Source: Halorussus ruber (lineage in GTDB: Archaea; Halobacteriota; Halobacteria; Halobacteriales; Haladaptataceae). From it: a DNA stretch of 64,000 bases. Where the stretch lies: NCBI RefSeq assembly GCF_004765785.1, contig NZ_SBIT01000008.1, positions 248,001 to 312,000 on the forward strand, written 5' to 3'. A model generated the notes under the pieces. The model did no database searches. It had not been told where the DNA came from and worked only from the letters and a program-made list of their open reading frames with translations. Shown here piece after piece: positions 44,108 through 51,812 of this stretch. Position 1 is the stretch's first letter. Each line of letters begins with the position of its first letter. The position numbers and the translations under genes are program-made.

Positions 44108-44225
44108 GCTTCTTGAAGCCCCCGCCCGGTCGCGGTCGCTCTGCGGCATATCCGACGGACGTAGTTGCGACGGATAGAGGCCGCAGAGCGACTGAAGTAA
44201 ACGCGACCGGGCGGCCCCTTCATCC
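44108..44225 (-). repeat. Structured repeat R3, copy 1
   Basis: Outer stem CCGCCCGGTCGCG (44122-44134) with CGCGACCGGGCGG (44202-44214); inner stem GTCGCTCTGCGGC (44135-44147) with GCCGCAGAGCGAC (44180-44192); apical TATCCG with CGGATA. In the other copy the inner stem differs at three adjacent pairs, all compensated. Confidence 0.8.
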
Positions 44226-44280
44226 ACCCGACGAGGTTCGACTGGTCGAGCACATCCTCGTGGAAGGGGCACCGAGCGTG

Positions 44281-44371
44281 GGCCTCAGACCTCCCCAACC
44301 TCCTCCTTCGCTCCCGCTGGTCGCTCAGTCGTCCCTCGCGCGGTTCGGCGCGGCCACGAGAGGCCGCGCCG
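44281..44371 (-). repeat. Structured repeat R2, copy 3 (divergent, truncated)
   Basis: Hairpin CGGCGCGGCC (44346-44355), loop ACGAGA (TCTCGT on the repeat strand), GGCCGCGCCG (44362-44371). Then GCGAGGGACGA and GGTTGGGGAGG on the minus strand as in the other copies. The distal CGGTAGACGCCTAGGC part is missing. Confidence 0.65.
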
Positions 44372-44529
44372 TGGGAGGCAAGCTCCCACGAGCCTTGCCT
44401 CACTTCGCTCGGCAAGACGCCAGCACGCGCCGAGAAAGAAGTTCCACTACGCGAGACGCTCTGAGATGGTCTATCGAGAAACTGCCGTGCCGGACCGAAA
44501 ACCGAGGAGAAGGAGGGCTGGTTATCGAG

Positions 44530-44649
44530 CTATCGCCACTGCGAGAGGGTGTGCGACTCCTCGAACGGCATCGCCAGATACGCTTCGTCGTTCGAGACGT
44601 CGGCGATGACGGTCGTGCGCTCGTCGTCGCTGTCGTCGACAGCGAACAT
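44530..44649 (-). CDS. Very short acidic protein (DUF7556-like)
   Basis: The 39-aa product starts MFAVDDSDDERTTVIADVSN and ends with AMPFEESHTLSQWR. The pattern ADVS-DEAYLAMP and final LxxWR recall a family of very short haloarchaeal proteins. The frame stays open for 21 further acidic codons upstream (DLDESFEEGEV) without a usual start, so an unusual start codon or a lost N terminus is possible. Confidence 0.5.
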   Translation of the reverse strand: MFAVDDSDDERTTVIADVSNDEAYLAMPFEESHTLSQWR

Positions 44650-44865
44650 GACTTCTCCCTCTTCGAACGATTCGTCGAGGTCGGCTGTGGGGATTGTCCA
44701 ACTCAGGGTAGATCACCGTCGTTCGGCGTGACGTACTCAGTTTTAGCTGCGGTAGCCTCTTTAGTATACACCTCACTCCCATCCGTAACGGGACGTTACG
44801 GCCAGCGTACCGCCGCAAAACGATGCGAAACGGACAGTTACCGCGGTCGAGAAGTCAAGGGAAAC

Positions 44866-47070
44866 TTACGCGCGGAGTCGCGCCGCGACCAGCGAGGCCG
44901 CCAGCAGCGCCACCAGCGTCACGCCGACGCCGAATCCGGGGACGGCGCTCCCCGAGCCCGAGGAGGTCGTCTCCTGTCCGGCGTCGTTCCCCTGCGCTTC
45001 GACCTGCACCTGCACTTCCTCGGTCACGGTCGCGCCGTACTCGTCCTCGACGACCACCGTCACCGTCTGCGTGCCGGGCGACCCGAAGCTGTGTTCGACC
45101 GACTCGCCCGTGACTTTCCCGCTAGCGAAGCGCCACGTAACGGTCGTGTCGCCGAGTTCGTCGGTCACGTCCGCCGAGAAGCCGACTGCCGTACCGACCG
45201 TCGCCGAGTCGGGCGTCGAGACGCTGACCTGCGGTTTGTCGTTGACCACCAGCGTCGCCGTCTCGGTGTCCTGAAGCCCGTTCTGGTCGGTCACGGTCAA
45301 CTCGACGGTCCGCTCGCCGACGCTGTCGAAGCCGACGCTCGCGGTCTGGCCCGAGAAGGACTCGTCGCCGACCGACCACTCGTAGCTGGTCGGCTCGCCG
45401 CTTTCGGCGGTCGAGCCGTTCGCGGAGAGTTCGGCGGTCTCGCCGACCAGCACCGACTCGTCGGCGTCGATGCTCGCACTCGGCGCTGGCACGTCGGTCA
45501 CGGCCAGCGTGCCGGTGCCCTCGGTCTCGGCCGCGAGGACCGCGGTTCCGTTCTCCTCGGACACCAGCGTCGTCTTCAGCATCGTCCACCCGTCAGCAGT
45601 TTTCTGGGCGACTTTGACGTCCGAGAGATTGGCCTCGACCGCCGCGGTCTGGACCGTGAACTCGACTGTCGCCGAGCCGTTCGCAAGTGCGCTCGGCCCG
45701 TCCATCGTGACCGCGTAGAGGGCCTCGCCCGGCGGCGAGAGCGCAGAGACGTTCGACTCCTCGGCGACCGAGAGGACGCCCGAGACGTTCGCGTCCGAGA
45801 GGGTGACCGCTCGAACCGGCGAGTCCTCGAACATCACGGTCGTCCCGGACTCGTTCGCGTCAGCGTCTTGGATGGCCGCGACCGCCGGGCCGCCGACCCG
45901 GACGACCCATCCGTCCCGCGTCTCGCCGTAGCTCGTGGACTCGCCGATTGCGAGGTAGCCGCCGCCGTGGCCCTCGACGACCGGCCAGAACTTGTCCCAG
46001 TACTCGCCGCCGAAGGTCTGCTCCCAGCTCTTCTTGCCGCTCGCGTCGGTCTTGAGCATCCAGCCGTCGGCACCCACTTCGCCGAGGACGTGCTTGGTGC
46101 CCGAGACGACGTAGCCGCCGTCAGGGTCGTTGTGGATGCCGTAGAAGGCGTCGTCCTTGGCGGTCCCGTAGGTCCGCTCCCACTGGGTCTCGCCGTTCCC
46201 CGAGATTTTCAGCATCCAGCCGTCCTGCTCGCCGTTGCCCTCGCTCGCGGTCCGACCCGCGAGGACGTAGCCGCCGTCCGAGGCCGCGACGGCGTCGTGG
46301 ACCTTGTCGAACTCGCCGCCGCCGTAGGTCTCGTCCCACTCGACTTCGCCCTCGCCGTCGACGCGAAGGACCCATCCGTCGGAGGGGTCGGCGGAGCTAC
46401 CCTGCGTGGTCCCGGTCATGAGCAGGTCGCCGCCGTCGGTCACGAAGATGGAGTTGACGTACTCGTCGGACCCCGAGCGGACGGTGTCGTAGGTCTCGCT
46501 CCAGACTTCCTTGCCGTCGCCGGTCAGCTTCATCGCCCACGCTTCGGCGTTGCCGCCGTCCTTCCGCCAGCCGCCGACGTAGATGTTGCCGCCCGAGCGG
46601 GCCAGCGACCAGAACTCCTCGGGGCCGTTCGCGCCGTAGGTCCGTTCCCACCGCTTCGCGCCGTCGGAGCCGAGTTTCATCACCCAGCCGTCTTTGTCCC
46701 CGTCGGTCGTCTTCGTGCCGACGACGAGATAGCCGTCGCCGACCTCCTCGACGCCGAAAATCCTGTCGGCACCCGACCCGCCGTAGGATTTCTCCCAGCG
46801 CGTCTCGCCCGCTCGGTCGAGCATGGCGACGTACCCGTCGTGGGGGTCGCTGGGGTCCGAACTGTTCGACCACCCGACGACGAGGTAGCCGTCGTCGACC
46901 GGGACGCCGGTCGCCAACTTGTCGTCACCGTTCCCGCCGACCGTCTTGGCCCACCGCTCGGGCGGGGCGTTTCCGGCGTCGTCGGGCGCGCTGACGGCCC
47001 CGACCGTGCCGACGACCGGCGCGACCGCGACCAGCAGCGCCAACATTCCGGCGAAGACGGCGTTTCTCAT
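44866..47070 (-). CDS. Secreted beta-propeller/PKD surface protein with PGF-CTERM anchor
   Basis: The 734-aa product has a Sec signal (MRNAVFAGMLALLVAVAPVV, cleavage about residue 26). Residues 38-395 hold seven propeller-like repeats of the form W-x-KxYGG-x-DGW-x-K-x-DGGYxVxG. Two PKD/Ig-like domains follow (about 490-570 and 575-665), then a Ser/Gly linker and the PGF-CTERM tail (VPGFGVGVTLVALLAASLVA plus Arg residues), recognised by archaeosortase A. It is a lipid-anchored, probably glycosylated, surface protein. Leadered: GGAGGAACG precedes the ATG, and an ATAACAAAG element lies 148 bases upstream. Confidence 0.9.
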   Translation of the reverse strand: MRNAVFAGMLALLVAVAPVVGTVGAVSAPDDAGNAPPERWAKTVGGNGDDKLATGVPVDDGYLVVGWSNSSDPSDPHDGYVAMLDRAGETRWEKSYGGSGADRIFGVEEVGDGYLVVGTKTTDGDKDGWVMKLGSDGAKRWERTYGANGPEEFWSLARSGGNIYVGGWRKDGGNAEAWAMKLTGDGKEVWSETYDTVRSGSDEYVNSIFVTDGGDLLMTGTTQGSSADPSDGWVLRVDGEGEVEWDETYGGGEFDKVHDAVAASDGGYVLAGRTASEGNGEQDGWMLKISGNGETQWERTYGTAKDDAFYGIHNDPDGGYVVSGTKHVLGEVGADGWMLKTDASGKKSWEQTFGGEYWDKFWPVVEGHGGGYLAIGESTSYGETRDGWVVRVGGPAVAAIQDADANESGTTVMFEDSPVRAVTLSDANVSGVLSVAEESNVSALSPPGEALYAVTMDGPSALANGSATVEFTVQTAAVEANLSDVKVAQKTADGWTMLKTTLVSEENGTAVLAAETEGTGTLAVTDVPAPSASIDADESVLVGETAELSANGSTAESGEPTSYEWSVGDESFSGQTASVGFDSVGERTVELTVTDQNGLQDTETATLVVNDKPQVSVSTPDSATVGTAVGFSADVTDELGDTTVTWRFASGKVTGESVEHSFGSPGTQTVTVVVEDEYGATVTEEVQVQVEAQGNDAGQETTSSGSGSAVPGFGVGVTLVALLAASLVAARLRA

Positions 47071-47218
47071 GGGTCGTTCCTCCTGTCGAAGACTGTCGTT
47101 GCATCGTTCGAGAGCATGGTATCCAAACGTTATCCGGTGTTATTCTGACGTTGTGGCCGTTCTCCCCGGACAGAGAACGCCGGAGCGAACGTTACTCCAT
47201 ATGTGTCCCTGTGCGGAC

Positions 47219-47227
47219 CTTTGTTAT
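47219..47227 (-). promoter_or_regulatory. ATAACAAAG element before the PGF-CTERM gene
   Basis: ACGTATAACAAAGGTCC on the minus strand, 148 bases before the ATG. The gene has a GGAGGAAC Shine-Dalgarno, consistent with a leader. Confidence 0.6.
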
Positions 47228-47363
47228 ACGTCCGTTGAGCGACTCGTAGGTCCTCCCTGTTATCGATTCCCGAGGAGTTCGAGATTGCCGAGAGAATCCG
47301 CGACGGTGGTGGTCTCGAATCTCGGCTCGGTGTAATCGGCGATTACGGGGGGACAGCCACGAG

Positions 47364-47372
47364 ATAACAAAG
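47364..47372 (+). promoter_or_regulatory. ATAACAAAG element before the DUF1616 gene
   Basis: GAGATAACAAAGTGGC, 85 bases before the ATG at 47458; a GGAGGG Shine-Dalgarno lies just before that ATG. Confidence 0.6.
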
Positions 47373-47457
47373 TGGCAATCGCGCGTTGCCCGACTGTAAT
47401 GAGCCGTCGAACCGACTCCGATTGGTATCGAAGCGTCGTTGGAGGGTCGTCGGACCC

Positions 47458-48474
47458 ATGAGTCACGAGGCCGCAGACGACACGCTGGTCGAGCGCCTCG
47501 CCCGACCGGCGCTCCCGCTTGACCTGCTCGCGGTCGTCGCCTACGCCGTCGCGGCGGTCGTCGTCCTGTCTCAGCCGGGGGTGTACGGCACGCCGCTGGC
47601 AGTCGCTGTCGGGATTCCGCTCCTGTTCTTCGCGCCGGGGTACGCGCTGGTGTCTTTCCTCTTCCCCGGCGCGACGCCCGACGACGCCTCGCCGAACTGG
47701 TCGCTGGCCGACGCCCGCCAACACGGGCTGACCGGCGGCGAGCGCGCCGCCCTCGGCTTCGGGTTCAGCGTCGCGCTACTCCCGCTGCTCGGAGTCGCGC
47801 TCGGCTTCTCGCCGTGGGCCATCACGCCCGGAACCGCCATCCTGTCGGTCGCCGTGGTCGCGTCTCTGTTCGCTCTCCTCGGGACGGTTCGGCGACTCCG
47901 GCGTCCGGCCGACCGGCGGTTCTCGCTCCCGATTCGGGCGTGGTCCGGCGACGCGAAGCGAGCGGTCTCCGGCGGGTCGATTACCGATACTGTCCTGAAC
48001 GTCGGCCTCGCGGCGGCGGTCGTCGTCGCCGTCGCGGCGGTCGGCTACGCGGTGGCCGCGCCCTCGCCCGGTCAGGACTACACCAGCGTCTCGCTGCTCT
48101 CGCAGAACGAGACCGGAAAGCTCGTGGCCGACGACTACCCCCGGAACTTCACCAGCGGTGAGGGCAAACCCCTCGTCGTGGAACTGGAGAACCACGAGGA
48201 GGTCCGGACCGACTACTCGGTCGTGGTCGAACTCCAGCGCGTCGAGCAGACGGGCGACGGCGGAGCCAAGGTGTTGCAGGAGCGAACGCTGGCGACGTTC
48301 ACGCCCACGGTCGGCGCGGGCGAGTCGTGGCGGGCGACCCACGAGGTCACCCCGACCATGACCGGCCAGAACCTGCGACTCACGTATCTGGTCTACGAGG
48401 GCGACCCGCCGAGTAATCCGACGACGGACAACGCCTACCGGCGGGTCCACGTCTGGGTCAACGTCTCGGGATAG
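47458..48474 (+). CDS. DUF1616 membrane protein
   Basis: The 338-aa product has about five membrane segments in residues 20-215, with the family motif VGIPLLFFAPGYALVSFLFP near residue 55, and an extracytoplasmic C-terminal domain (about 220-338) with an Ig-like pattern (LVVELENHEEVRTDYSVVVE). DUF1616 proteins sit in archaeal surface-glycan regions; their activity is unknown. The ATG at 47458 is marked by a GGAGG about 13 bases upstream. A hydrolase gene follows 29 bases after its stop. Confidence 0.87.
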   Translation: MSHEAADDTLVERLARPALPLDLLAVVAYAVAAVVVLSQPGVYGTPLAVAVGIPLLFFAPGYALVSFLFPGATPDDASPNWSLADARQHGLTGGERAALGFGFSVALLPLLGVALGFSPWAITPGTAILSVAVVASLFALLGTVRRLRRPADRRFSLPIRAWSGDAKRAVSGGSITDTVLNVGLAAAVVVAVAAVGYAVAAPSPGQDYTSVSLLSQNETGKLVADDYPRNFTSGEGKPLVVELENHEEVRTDYSVVVELQRVEQTGDGGAKVLQERTLATFTPTVGAGESWRATHEVTPTMTGQNLRLTYLVYEGDPPSNPTTDNAYRRVHVWVNVSG

Positions 48475-48503
48475 CCTGATTTCGATGGCTCCTCGCTAAC
48501 TCC

Positions 48504-49103
48504 ATGTGGCCTTGGGAACACCTCGCAGTGGGATACCTCTGTTACTCGCTGTTCGTCCGGGTTTTCGGGCGGCGAGCGCCGCGAACGTGGCCGGTGGTCG
48601 CGCTGGCGCTCGGGACGCAATTTCCGGATTTGGTGGACAAACCGCTGGCGTGGGCGTTCGGGATTCTGCCCTCCGGGCACTCGCTGGCCCACTCGCTGTT
48701 GGTGGCGCTCCCGGCGTCGGCGCTCGCGGTGACCGCGGCGTGGGCGCTCGGTCGGCGGAAAGTCGGCGCGGCGTTCGCGTTCGGCTACCTCTCGCACCTG
48801 CCCGGTGACGTCTTCTATCCCCTGCTCGTCGGGGGCGAACCCAACTACGGATTCCTGTTCTGGCCGGTGGTGCCCGCGTCGGTCTCGGAGGCCAGCGTGG
48901 GCTTCGTCGAGATGGTCCGGACGCTGTTCGTCCGGTACGTGGCCGAACTCGCGCAGGGTGAGGTCTCGACGTACCTCGCCGTCGAACTCGGGTTGATGGC
49001 CTCGGTGGTCCTGCTCTGGCTCTACGACGGCGCGCCGCCGTTCGGGTCGCTCTGGTCGAGGGTCGTCGTGGGTCGCCCGGCGGACGCCGAGGAGACTCCC
49101 TGA
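48504..49103 (+). CDS. YdjM-like membrane-bound metal-dependent hydrolase
   Basis: The 199-aa product starts MWPWEHLAVGYLCYSLFVR and shows the family metal ligands: EH in WEHLAVGY, Asp in GTQFPDLVDKP, the GHSLAHSLL double His and YLSHLPGD. Four to five membrane helices. The family (LexA-regulated in E. coli) is predicted to hydrolyse a phosphate ester in the membrane. It lies just after the DUF1616 gene and probably shares its transcript. Confidence 0.85.
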   Translation: MWPWEHLAVGYLCYSLFVRVFGRRAPRTWPVVALALGTQFPDLVDKPLAWAFGILPSGHSLAHSLLVALPASALAVTAAWALGRRKVGAAFAFGYLSHLPGDVFYPLLVGGEPNYGFLFWPVVPASVSEASVGFVEMVRTLFVRYVAELAQGEVSTYLAVELGLMASVVLLWLYDGAPPFGSLWSRVVVGRPADAEETP

Positions 49104-49147
49104 CATATCCCTTTTCAGGAAGTTCCTGTTCGGCTCACAGGACGCCC

Positions 49148-49156
49148 ATAACAATG
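49148..49156 (+). promoter_or_regulatory. Variant ATAACAATG element before the beta-helix lipoprotein gene
   Basis: CCATAACAATGCG, one mismatch to the consensus, ends 25 bases before the GTG start at 49182. Confidence 0.45.
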
Positions 49157-49181
49157 CGCCCGAGAGGCGAGAGAGTCGGAC

Positions 49182-50624
49182 GTGAACCGCGAGAGTCCGA
49201 CGACGAGACGCGCGTATCTCCGCGCCGCCGGAGCGACCGCCGCGGCGGGTGCGCTGGCCGGGTGTAGCGAGTTCGTGCCCGGAGAGACGACCACGACGCG
49301 ACGGACCACTTCGACCGAAACCGCCGAAATTACTGAAACCGCCGACACGCCGACCGGCGAGACGACGGCGACGACGAGGGGGAACTCGACTTCCGCGCGG
49401 ACTCCGACCGGGGTGGACCGGAGCCGGTACGAGACCGTCGTCAACGTCGCGGACGCGGGCGCTGACACCTCCGGCGAGGAGCCAATCGACGCGGTTCTGA
49501 ACGAGCGCGTCGGCGACGACACCCTGCTGTACTTTCCGCCGGGGCGCTACAAGCTCGGAGAGTGGGAGGCGACCGGGTACAGTAACCTCGGGGTCGTGGG
49601 CGACGACGCCGCGCTGATTCCGCCGGAGGGCAAGCGCGACTACTGGCTGATGTGGGGCGACCTCAGCGACTTTCGCTTCTCGGGATTCACCGTCGACTGC
49701 CGGGGGAACCGTGTCGCGCCCGTGACCTACCTCTCGGTCTCTGGCGGGCGCAACGTCGTCCGGAACGTGGCGGTCCGGGGCCACCGACGCGCGCCGACGA
49801 CCGCCTTCGAGGTTGCGGCGGCGGGGAAGGGTTCTGAACTGCGCTTCGAGAACGTCGAACTCCCCGACGGCTCGACCCACGGCCACGCGGTCTACGTCTT
49901 CCCGCGGAGCGTCGGCGACCTCACCTTCCGGAACTGCCGGGTCGAGCATTGGATGGAGGGCCTGTATGCGGCCTACCACCGCGGGCCGCTCCGAATCTTG
50001 GGCGGCTACTACGCCAACAACGGCATCGAACAGGTCCGGGTCGGCGGCGGGACCTCCGGCGCGCTGGTCCGCGGCGTGACCGTCCGCGTGGACAACCCCA
50101 GACGGCCCGAGTACAAGCCCAACATGCGCGGCATCTGGGCCGAGGAGGGCGGCAAGGTCCGCATCGAGGACTGCGACGTCGCCATCACGGACCTGACCGG
50201 GACCTACAGCTCGGGCGCTATCGTCGTCGGCAAGCAGTTCGGCGAGGCGGTCGTGGTGAACACCGAAATCCGGACCGACGCCGACGCTTACGGTCTCCAC
50301 GTCCGGAATCCCATCGAGAGCATGGCGGGCGAGACCATCCCGAGCATGGGCAGTCTCCCGAAGCGCACCCGATTCCGGGCGCGCAACGTCCGCATCTCGG
50401 GGTCCGCGGAGTCGGGGGCCGCGGTCCGGGCCACCCGCCGGGACGACTGCCGATTCGAGAGTCTCTGCGTCCGCCACCCTCGCGGCGACCGCGACGGGAT
50501 TTGGGTGGCCGGTGCGGACGGGTGCGCGGTGCGCTCCTCGACCATCGACGTGACCGGCGAGGCCCTCCGGGCCGAGGAGGCAGAAGTGGAGACGATCGGC
50601 GTCCGGACGAACGGGTCGTGTTAG
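49182..50624 (+). CDS. Tat lipoprotein with right-handed beta-helix
   Basis: Starts with GTG. The 480-aa product has a Tat signal with lipobox (TTRRAYLRAAGATAAAGALA then GC), so Cys at about residue 28 is lipid-modified. A Thr/Glu-rich linker runs to about 80. The rest is a beta-helix starting VVNVADAGADTSGEEPID, the usual opening of pectate-lyase-fold proteins, with repeats of the type VRNVAVRG, LRFENVEL and VRIEDCDVAI. It probably binds or trims an acidic surface polysaccharide outside the cell. Confidence 0.88.
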   Translation: MNRESPTTRRAYLRAAGATAAAGALAGCSEFVPGETTTTRRTTSTETAEITETADTPTGETTATTRGNSTSARTPTGVDRSRYETVVNVADAGADTSGEEPIDAVLNERVGDDTLLYFPPGRYKLGEWEATGYSNLGVVGDDAALIPPEGKRDYWLMWGDLSDFRFSGFTVDCRGNRVAPVTYLSVSGGRNVVRNVAVRGHRRAPTTAFEVAAAGKGSELRFENVELPDGSTHGHAVYVFPRSVGDLTFRNCRVEHWMEGLYAAYHRGPLRILGGYYANNGIEQVRVGGGTSGALVRGVTVRVDNPRRPEYKPNMRGIWAEEGGKVRIEDCDVAITDLTGTYSSGAIVVGKQFGEAVVVNTEIRTDADAYGLHVRNPIESMAGETIPSMGSLPKRTRFRARNVRISGSAESGAAVRATRRDDCRFESLCVRHPRGDRDGIWVAGADGCAVRSSTIDVTGEALRAEEAEVETIGVRTNGSC

Positions 50625-51111
50625 GGCGTGTTTTGGGTATATGGATAACTAATTCGTTTCTAAATATATAAATACATTTCTTTAGCACGTATCTTCATTT
50701 CTCTGCGCGAGGGCGCTCGCCGCCCGCGGCGAGCCCCCGGTGGAACAGACCACGCGCGAACGCTCGGTGAATCAGCCGACAGGAGGCGCTCGACTCATCA
50801 ACTGCCGGGACGCCCCCGCCCGACCAACCGCCGGGATGCGCTCGGCGAATCAGCCGCCGTGGGCGGGATGAAGGGGCCGCCCGGTCGCGTTCACTGTAGT
50901 CGCTGGTCGGCCTCTATCCGTCGCAACCACGTCCGTCGGATATGCCGACCAGCGACCGCGACCGGGCGGGGGCTTCAAGAAGACAACACCGCCGTAGTCC
51001 TGCTGTCTTCACTCCCGATTACACCCAAAGAGAGCGACACGTCAAGGACTTCCAAACTCCTTAGACTTCAGCCGCCAGCAAGCCAATAACGATGCAAACC
51101 GACCCAAGAGT
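50625..51111. other. Noncoding region with A+T island and R3 copy 2
   Basis: A+T island at 50636-50690. Two related 20-base words, CGCTCGGTGAATCAGCCG (50761) and CGCTCGGCGAATCAGCCG (50840), precede R3 copy 2. No gene seen. AATAACGATG, a weak relative of the ATAACAAAG element, lies 17 bases before mgsA. Confidence 0.5.
50866..50982 (+). repeat. Structured repeat R3, copy 2
   Basis: Outer stem CCGCCCGGTCGCG (50877-50889) with CGCGACCGGGCGG (50957-50969), a 9-base bulge, inner stem GTCGCTGGTCGGC (50899-50911) with GCCGACCAGCGAC (50944-50956), apical TATCCG with CGGATA. It is in inverted orientation to copy 1 at 44.1 kb. Confidence 0.8.
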
Positions 51112-51496
51112 ATGACTCGTCTCGCACTCATCGCCCACGACGACGAGAAGCCGGTCATCATCTCGCTCGCCACCGAACACGAGGACCTCCTCTCGACGTT
51201 CGACCTCGTGGCGACCGGTTCGACCGGCGAGCGAATCGCCGAGGCGACCGGCCTCGAAATCGAACGCAAGGAGTCCGGCCCAATCGGCGGCGACACCCAA
51301 ATCGGCGCGGAGGTGGTCGAGGGCCTCCTCGACGGCATCGTCTTCCTGCGGGACCCGCTCGGCCCAGCCGCACGAGCCCGACATCACCGCGCTCCTGCGC
51401 CTCTGTGACGTTCACGACGTGCCGATGGCGACGACGCGGACCTCGGCAGAGTACCTTCTGGAAGGACTGGCTGGTGAATCGGCGGAGGGGTCGTAA
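51112..51496 (+). pseudogene. mgsA: Methylglyoxal synthase with a frameshift
   Basis: The first 84 codons encode a normal methylglyoxal synthase: [41 protein letters not shown] and GIVFLRDPL. At about 51358-51370 the frame shifts; reading on in the next frame gives [35 protein letters not shown] and a stop at 51494. Comparison with the usual DPLxAQPHEPD spacing suggests two missing bases. The enzyme would turn dihydroxyacetone phosphate into methylglyoxal. Either a recent pseudogene or an assembly error. Confidence 0.8.
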
Positions 51497-51590
51497 ATTC
51501 AGACCCGGTTTTGGGGTTTGAGGACGGGGAGAACCAGAGTATTCGAACACACCGTCCCTACCCACTTCGCTCAGTTCGACAGTCCACGTC

Positions 51591-51722
51591 CCTGGCGGAC
51601 TGAAAGGGCGAGCGGGGTTCGCGCAACGCTTGGTCGTCTCAGCGGGCAACTATTTCCGCGCGGGCTGTGCGGAGAGCGCGGAAATATCCCGCTGAGCGAC
51701 CGCGAACCGCGCGAGGGCTTTC
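51591..51722 (-). repeat. Structured repeat R1, copy B (compact form)
   Basis: On the minus strand it starts GAAAGCCCTCGCGCGG and ends CCCTTTCAGTCCGCCAGG. Core hairpin: CTCAGCGGG with CCCGCTGAG (51688-51696 and 51638-51646) and ATTTCCGCGC with GCGCGGAAAT, loop TCTCCGCACAGCCC. Stem bases differ from copy A by paired changes. Confidence 0.75.
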
Positions 51723-51812
51723 TAAACCTTGTTTCCGTCTTCTTGAAGTCCCAGTTCTATCTGCTCGTCTGATTGTTATGAGAAGCAGACCCGACGTTAA
51801 AGGCTGAAAGAA

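Follow-up and report, generated by a model that had tools for sequence, protein, structure and literature searches.

The analysed window is a 64,000-nucleotide (nt) stretch of the Halorussus ruber contig NZ_SBIT01000008.1, and positions are given in window coordinates. It carries three copies of a repeat family, called R3, whose members fold into a long hairpin. A preliminary description of this DNA had reported two of them, copies 1 and 2, as sharing a 117-nt fold. Both are present, and the structure described is obtained when each copy is folded alone, with a minimum free energy of -73.5 kcal/mol in both cases. None of 200 dinucleotide shuffles folded equally well (z about -7), and z lies between -7 and -7.8 when both copies are folded as DNA.

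The R3 hairpin rises from a 5-bp foot (TGAAG/CTTCA), followed by the GGG/GGG internal loop and by an outer stem of 13 bp that is the same in both copies. Above it, a bulge of 9 nt, present only in the 5' arm, precedes the inner stem, also of 13 bp; a small loop, asymmetric in shape, then leads to the apical hairpin (TATCCG/CGGATA). The two copies differ at three positions of the inner stem, whose 5' arm is GTCGCT-CTG-CGGC in copy 1 and GTCGCT-GGT-CGGC in copy 2. Each 3' arm is exactly complementary to its partner, and the compensation noticed earlier is therefore exact. The bulge can have 8, 9, 13, 15 or 16 nt, and small hairpins take its place in other copies. Tandem repeats of 26-27 nt are found upstream of most R3 members, as judged from the family consensus. 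The third window copy, a diverged member, is located in the gap separating an mgsA-like open reading frame (ORF) from an sdhA-like gene.

Immediately upstream of copy 1 (44250-44440, minus strand) there is also a chain of short perfect hairpins, of the types CTTGCC..GGCAAG, GTGGGAG..CTCCCAC and GGCGCGGCC..GGCCGCGCC. A coding-like pattern noticed by eye raised the idea that the downstream module derives from a protein-coding sequence; it was discarded because hairpin lengths vary by non-multiples of three and the reading frames break.

Copy number and distribution

The preliminary description understated the extent of R3. In the genome to which the window belongs, blastn detects more than 40 copies, and a covariance model (R1) built from 38 copies of this genome gives at least 144 matches at E<0.1, a few of them falling on the opposite strand of a hairpin already matched. 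The family comprises about 140 copies in this genome. The own-genome copies analysed are a sample of about half of them and, since R3 copies share descent, the counts given below do not represent independent events.

Within Halorussus, R3 is present in 17 of 18 genomes, that of the window included, and the congeners have from 0 to 103 R1 matches; at the low end, one congener has zero copies and another a single one. The exact R3 pattern was matched in H. halobius, H. litoreus, H. salinisoli and one Halobacteriales metagenome-assembled genome, and plasmid matches were obtained in H. salilacus and H. caseinilyticus. An order-wide survey with R1 (146 genomes, 57 genera; threshold E<=1e-6) detected R3 in 41 genomes belonging to 15 genera. 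Carrier genomes outside Halorussus usually have 1-10 copies, and amplification of R3 is seen only in Halorussus among the 146 genomes surveyed. Folded copies from eight further genera keep the same architecture, namely the TGAAAGGGGC...GGGGCTTTC foot, the GGG/GGG loop and the 5' bulge, and also share GTCGTCT with an unpaired T, CTATC/GATATG and the apical hairpin. Further copies, whose lack in related genomes had been proposed as a reason to abandon the idea of a functional or mobile hairpin, are thus found in congeners and in other genera.

Neither the window nor any of eight related loci gave a match above the Rfam gathering score. In the same window, a tRNA-Arg (1139-1227) recognised by ARAGORN and by a tRNA family search (40 bits) is missing from the gathering-level Rfam scan, a filter effect to be weighed when the lack of an Rfam match is read. 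No description of R3 was found in the open-licence papers searched. A viral origin was rejected, since the exact core pattern has no match in viral contigs and none in phage records.

Table 1. Coordinates of the R3 copies and of their parts (window positions, unless a locus or plasmid is named).
Feature	Position	Strand	Evidence
R3 copy 1, 117 nt, CTG inner-stem variant, 9-nt 5' bulge TTTACTTCA	44109..44225	-	Fold; covariance model R1, 137.7 bits
Copy 1 upstream module, about 2 units of the 27-nt repeat (..ACGCTCGGTGCCCCTTCCACGAGGATGTGCTCGACCAGTCGAACC..); limit approximate	44226..44300	-	
R3 copy 2, 117 nt, GGT inner-stem variant	50866..50982	+	Fold; R1, 138.4 bits
Copy 2 upstream module, 26-27-nt tandem repeat x3.8 (CGCTCGGCGAATCAACCGCCGGGACG)	50761..50859	+	Repeat analysis; family consensus
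Copy 2 foot, 5' side TGAAG, partner 50973-50977	50869..50873	+	Fold
Copy 2 outer stem, 5' arm, partner 50957-50969	50877..50889	+	Fold; covariation
Copy 2 9-nt bulge, 5' arm only	50890..50898	+	Fold
Copy 2 inner stem, 5' arm, partner 50944-50956, carries the CTG/GGT compensated change	50899..50911	+	Fold; covariation
Copy 2 downstream module, weakly conserved, G-poor, begins CTTCAAGAAGAC; outer limit approximate	50983..51060	+	
R3 copy 3, diverged subfamily member, foot ACTGAAAGGGC / GAGGGCTTTC, apical stem TATTTCCGCGC/GCGCGGAAATA	51598..51727	+	R1, 48-49 bits; fold z -3.4
Head-to-head pair	L085 1293-1396/1501-1610	-/+	
Head-to-head pair	L116 8927/9214	-/+	
Head-to-head pair	L123 9730/9948	-/+	
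Head-to-head pair	L080 1501/1794	-/+	
Haloarcula marismortui copy	pNG500 88600-88872 (L351 7001-7273)		

Covariation and base-pair chemistry

The stems of R3 covary strongly. In the 38 Halorussus copies, 97.0% of the alignment cells are standard pairs and 19 of the 32 pairs show two-sided changes; none of 500 shuffles reaches any of the covariation measures, and pairing falls to 35-44% when the partner columns are slid. Twenty-nine copies from other genera, taken as an independent set, show 96.7% of paired cells and two-sided changes in 23 of 33 pairs (0/500 shuffles), although pairing in this set leans towards the model to which the alignment was fitted. Unpaired stem changes, which the preliminary description regarded as adverse, do occur but are rare (3% of the cells), most of them being G.G at one outer-stem pair. 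At the most variable pair positions, examined in 154 Halorussus copies, all four Watson-Crick pairs are present and non-pairs account for 1-2%. Even the length of the A-run and T-run of the foot covaries: AA is found with TT in 52 copies and AAA with TTT in 11, and no mixed combination exists.

G-U represents 0.8% of the standard pairs in R3 versus 6.6% in the acceptor and T stems of the tRNAs of the same genome (p=3e-6), as would be expected if the arms were matched at the DNA level. On the displayed strand, G.T is more frequent than A.C, both in Halorussus (21:8, p=0.02) and in other genera (14:5), suggesting that this strand, either as RNA or as single-stranded DNA (ssDNA), is the folding one. 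The polarity of the bulge and of the loop is almost never inverted (44:1 and 129:1, respectively), and the GGG/GGG loop and the one-sided bulge have not been repaired in any copy.

The preliminary description considered such paired changes hard to obtain by drift. This view has to be qualified, since compensatory changes of several bases are known to arise in a single event when replicating DNA undergoes template switching (PMC8794818). Another report (PMC8604942) describes spacer inversion as a further outcome when the template is switched between inverted repeats.

Constraint on the hairpin and genomic location

Five orthologous R3 copies could be compared in a close species pair (G004 and G015). 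Differences affect 16 of 587 hairpin positions (2.7%), 114 of 914 in the immediate flanks of 100 nt (12.5%), and 95 of 1885 (5.0%) in more distant, mostly coding sequence. At orthologous sites the R3 hairpin thus evolves 3-5 times slower than its flanks, which indicates that it is constrained. The earlier proposal that the paired changes reflect either function or copying of a folded molecule is strengthened by this slow change, by the two covariation sets and by the strict polarity of bulge and loop.

As had been anticipated, R3 copies are intergenic wherever they were mapped: none of 70 overlaps a called gene (gene calls for these placement counts were made with a simple codon-usage script). 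R3 occupies about one quarter of the intergenic regions of at least 250 nt, and the median length of the occupied regions is 472 nt versus 159 nt. With respect to co-directional flanking genes, the orientation of R3 is not significantly biased (27 versus 17, p=0.17), which argues against a terminator or an untranslated region (UTR) element; a terminator or mRNA-stability role was rejected for this reason. The distance to start codons is not random: of 41 cases, 26 have the 3' end of R3 at 90-145 bp from a start codon, compared with 5.9 expected from random placement in the same gaps (maximum of 14 in 2000 trials). No conserved promoter-like element was detected upstream of R3, where there are only the GC-rich 27-nt repeats. 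Head-to-head inverted R3 pairs, about 90-210 nt apart, are found in several genomes (Table 1).

Turnover of R3 sites

At the mgsA and xapX loci, where two of the window copies are located, the hairpin is present in none of 27 orthologous congeneric loci, and relatives in which the upstream gene is conserved have a gap of about 100 bp, versus 488 in the genome of the window. In the close pair G004/G015, six R3 sites are common to both species and other sites are not. At least one of these differences (G015 L077 compared with G004) is a deletion of the hairpin that left the foot behind. The genome of the window also contains hairpin-deletion scars (GGATGAAGGGGC|GAGGGCTTCAAGAA) and other scaffolds without a hairpin. 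In addition, copies tend to be closest to other copies of their own genome (9 of 12 in G002 versus 7% expected, and 4 of 4 in G006 versus 2%). The dynamics of R3 look like those of a lineage-specific amplification, now slow, accompanied by loss.

Transposase genes and Haloarcula plasmids

The genome of the window contains six intact Y1_Tnp genes and one fragment, and none of these has an R3 hairpin within 1.5 kb. One of the intact genes, coding for a Y1 (HUH) transposase (G000:C1:486604-486948, L218), is without an adjacent TnpB gene among the matches listed, unlike the other five. The possibility that R3 is an IS200/IS605 end or a TnpB-associated RNA was discarded after inspection of 27 TnpA/TnpB loci, only one of which has R3 as a chance neighbour.

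About seven Haloarcula plasmids have the hairpin at an orthologous position adjoining a SOSS-B/RPA gene, and the copies are embedded in longer homologous blocks of about 2-5 kb (for the H. marismortui copy, see Table 1). A type IV secretion DNA-binding gene lies near the R3 copy of these plasmids, and no transposase was recognised in the blocks. This neighbourhood is suggestive of a possible tie to the metabolism, handling or transfer of ssDNA.

A second family of intergenic hairpins

The same genomes contain an unrelated family of intergenic mini-hairpins with the loop GCGGTTT. It comprises 28 perfect hairpins with 9 different stem sequences (for instance GAAGAC, GGAGAC and GAGGAC, seen as perfect 8-bp stems), none of them in genes. 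Stem length is bimodal, being either 0-5 bp, as expected by chance, or 8-9 bp. These hairpins were seen in the window and at L113, L116, L131 and L005, among others, and some are nested within the bulge or the apical loop of R3. This family behaves like R3, with matched arms and an intergenic location.

Comparison with known repeat families

Among the closest known systems are the bacterial REP/REPIN sequences associated with RAYTs, which are solitary Y1 transposases (PMC3116915, PMC2817692). They also consist of dozens to hundreds of extragenic hairpin repeats per genome with lineage-specific amplification, conserved ends and inverted pairs, and compensatory hairpin changes are reported to be common in REPINs (PMC3116915). 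R3 is likewise present in high copy number, extragenic, and hairpin-forming with compensatory changes. However, R3 is archaeal and forms a single bipartite stem of 117 nt whose bulge is fixed and one-sided, whereas REPINs are composed of two REPs of 20-40 nt; it lacks the GTAG/CGTC tag, its foot being TGAAG/TGAAAG...CTTC/CTTTC, and no RAYT-like gene was found to adjoin R3 copies or to be flanked by them.

Haloarchaea themselves possess dispersed palindrome-bearing repeats devoid of transposase genes, the PATEs of Haloquadratum walsbyi (PMC3119063). PATEs have near-terminal palindromes like those of IS605-type transposons, while R3 shows no systematic linkage to TnpA/TnpB. PATEs also insert in a strain-specific manner with no target duplication; for R3, sites were seen to be present in some species and absent from others, and clean insertion ends were not found. 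The SMR-A repeats of Haloquadratum (PMC3119063) are similar to R3 in length (about 110 bp), in their prominent inverted repeats, in their tens of copies and in the nesting of hairpins within hairpins. However, SMR-A copies are highly similar to each other and insert into PATE/IS605 palindromes; R3 copies diverge by 8-25%, have compensated stems and lie between ordinary genes. The enterobacterial BIMEs are also composite intergenic palindrome arrays of alternating orientation, but their sequence is unrelated and they contain REP linkers instead of 27-nt tandem repeats. Since R3 departs from REPINs, PATEs and SMR-A in at least one tested feature each, it is read as a REPIN-like archaeal hairpin element.

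Nature of R3

The interpretation that we favour, with moderate confidence, is that R3 is a non-autonomous dispersed intergenic element, similar to REPINs and PATEs, which is maintained in the form of a single folded strand, ssDNA being the most likely one, with the probable help of template switching. The unit would be the hairpin of about 117 nt, to which the upstream tandem repeats and the G-poor downstream module are usually added in Halorussus. It could be copied as a folded single strand, as REPINs are by trans-acting tyrosine (HUH) transposases, or in the way of the Haloquadratum PATEs and SMRs. A protein acting in trans would recognise the parts that do not vary (foot, GGG/GGG loop, 5' bulge, CTAT/ATAT and loops), and the variable stem letters would need only to be complementary. 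After mutation, the arms are probably re-matched with the help of template switching during replication. The number of copies, their restriction to intergenic regions, the covariation, the slow change of the hairpin, the turnover of sites, the clustering by lineage and the strand polarity are observed; the ssDNA intermediate, the trans-acting enzyme and the part played by template switching are inferred. The strict bulge and loop polarity and the excess of G.T are expected if the displayed strand folds, and the behaviour of the GCGGTTT-loop family also counts in favour of this interpretation. Of the two forms suggested by the preliminary description, an RNA or an element moving by ssDNA transposition, the lack of orientation bias, the intergenic dispersal and the turnover of sites favour a DNA element. 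No transposition event was seen, and no linked transposase was found.

Several results weigh against such an element. Despite the presence/absence differences between species, no clean insertion with defined ends was found; some of the G004/G015 differences are deletions or complex replacements rather than insertions, and the sample contains no recent near-identical dispersed copies, the best pairs being about 92% identical, so that movement is not directly shown. Only 1 of 27 IS200/IS605 loci has an R3 hairpin nearby, which is consistent with chance. Moreover, the purifying constraint on the hairpin exceeds the needs of a passive mobile relic, and the preferred distance to the start codon could reflect a regulatory role.

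This constraint, together with the strong covariation in two sets of copies, the internal motifs conserved across genera, the excess of G.T over A.C on one strand and the preferred distance to start codons, would also fit a structured RNA, either a small non-coding RNA or a cis-acting UTR element, whose structure is under selection and which became multi-copy by spreading with, or as, an element. We consider it unlikely because orientation relative to the flanking genes is unbiased, G-U pairs are eight times rarer than in tRNA stems, the region upstream has GC-rich repeats instead of a conserved promoter-like element, Rfam gives no match, and copy number varies from 0 to 140 between congeners. 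The confinement of R3 to intergenic regions, its presence in about one quarter of those of at least 250 nt, its fixed spacing from starts, the constraint, the head-to-head pairs and the proximity of the Haloarcula plasmid copy to an RPA/SOSS-B gene could be explained as well by a BIME-like chromosomal element, a cruciform or hairpin bound by nucleoid, topoisomerase or replication proteins and useful at gene borders. Such a role appears distinctly unlikely, since the hairpin is missing at the same genes in every congener tested, one congener has no copies and another only one, and a symmetric cruciform does not need a strict polarity.

It is also conceivable that no selection on structure exists, and that R3 copies are old dispersed repeats whose arms were homogenised by template switching at quasi-palindromes, covariation being a mutational by-product. 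The mechanism is documented (PMC8794818), and it would account for compensated changes that span several bases, for the scarcity of G-U intermediates, for the occurrence of all four Watson-Crick pairs with very few non-pairs, and for the matched arms of an unrelated hairpin family. However, spacer inversion, attributed to template switching in PMC8604942, is nearly absent in R3, the GGG/GGG loop and the one-sided bulge were never corrected, and change is slower in the hairpin than in its flanks, which makes this explanation improbable. A broader view, which we put forward tentatively as a possibility well short of even, is that R3 is a haloarchaea-wide, so far undescribed structured element with a single-stranded fold (RNA or ssDNA) of conserved function, which most genera keep on plasmids or at a small number of loci, down to a single one, and which was amplified in Halorussus into a gene-border system maintained by arm-matching.

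Compensated hairpins of the REPIN type are known from bacteria, and R3, as an order-wide archaeal counterpart, would extend this biology to archaea. Its distinctive features as a counterpart are a copy number that ranges from 0 to about 140 per genome, the lack of a linked transposase and a hairpin that is more constrained than its surroundings. R3 can also serve as a test bed to distinguish whether hairpin covariation comes from selection on a folded molecule or from template switching, since its copies are numerous, orthologous pairs and deletion scars are available, and another hairpin family exists in these genomes. R3 is, in addition, a warning that covariation by itself is no proof of RNA.

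Other features of the window

The mgsA-like ORF (51112-51497, 98 aa) shows an apparent frameshift near 51365-51380. The conserved continuation after FLRDPL is located in another frame, and the frame is open in congeners. This frameshift appears to be an assembly error or the mark of a pseudogene.

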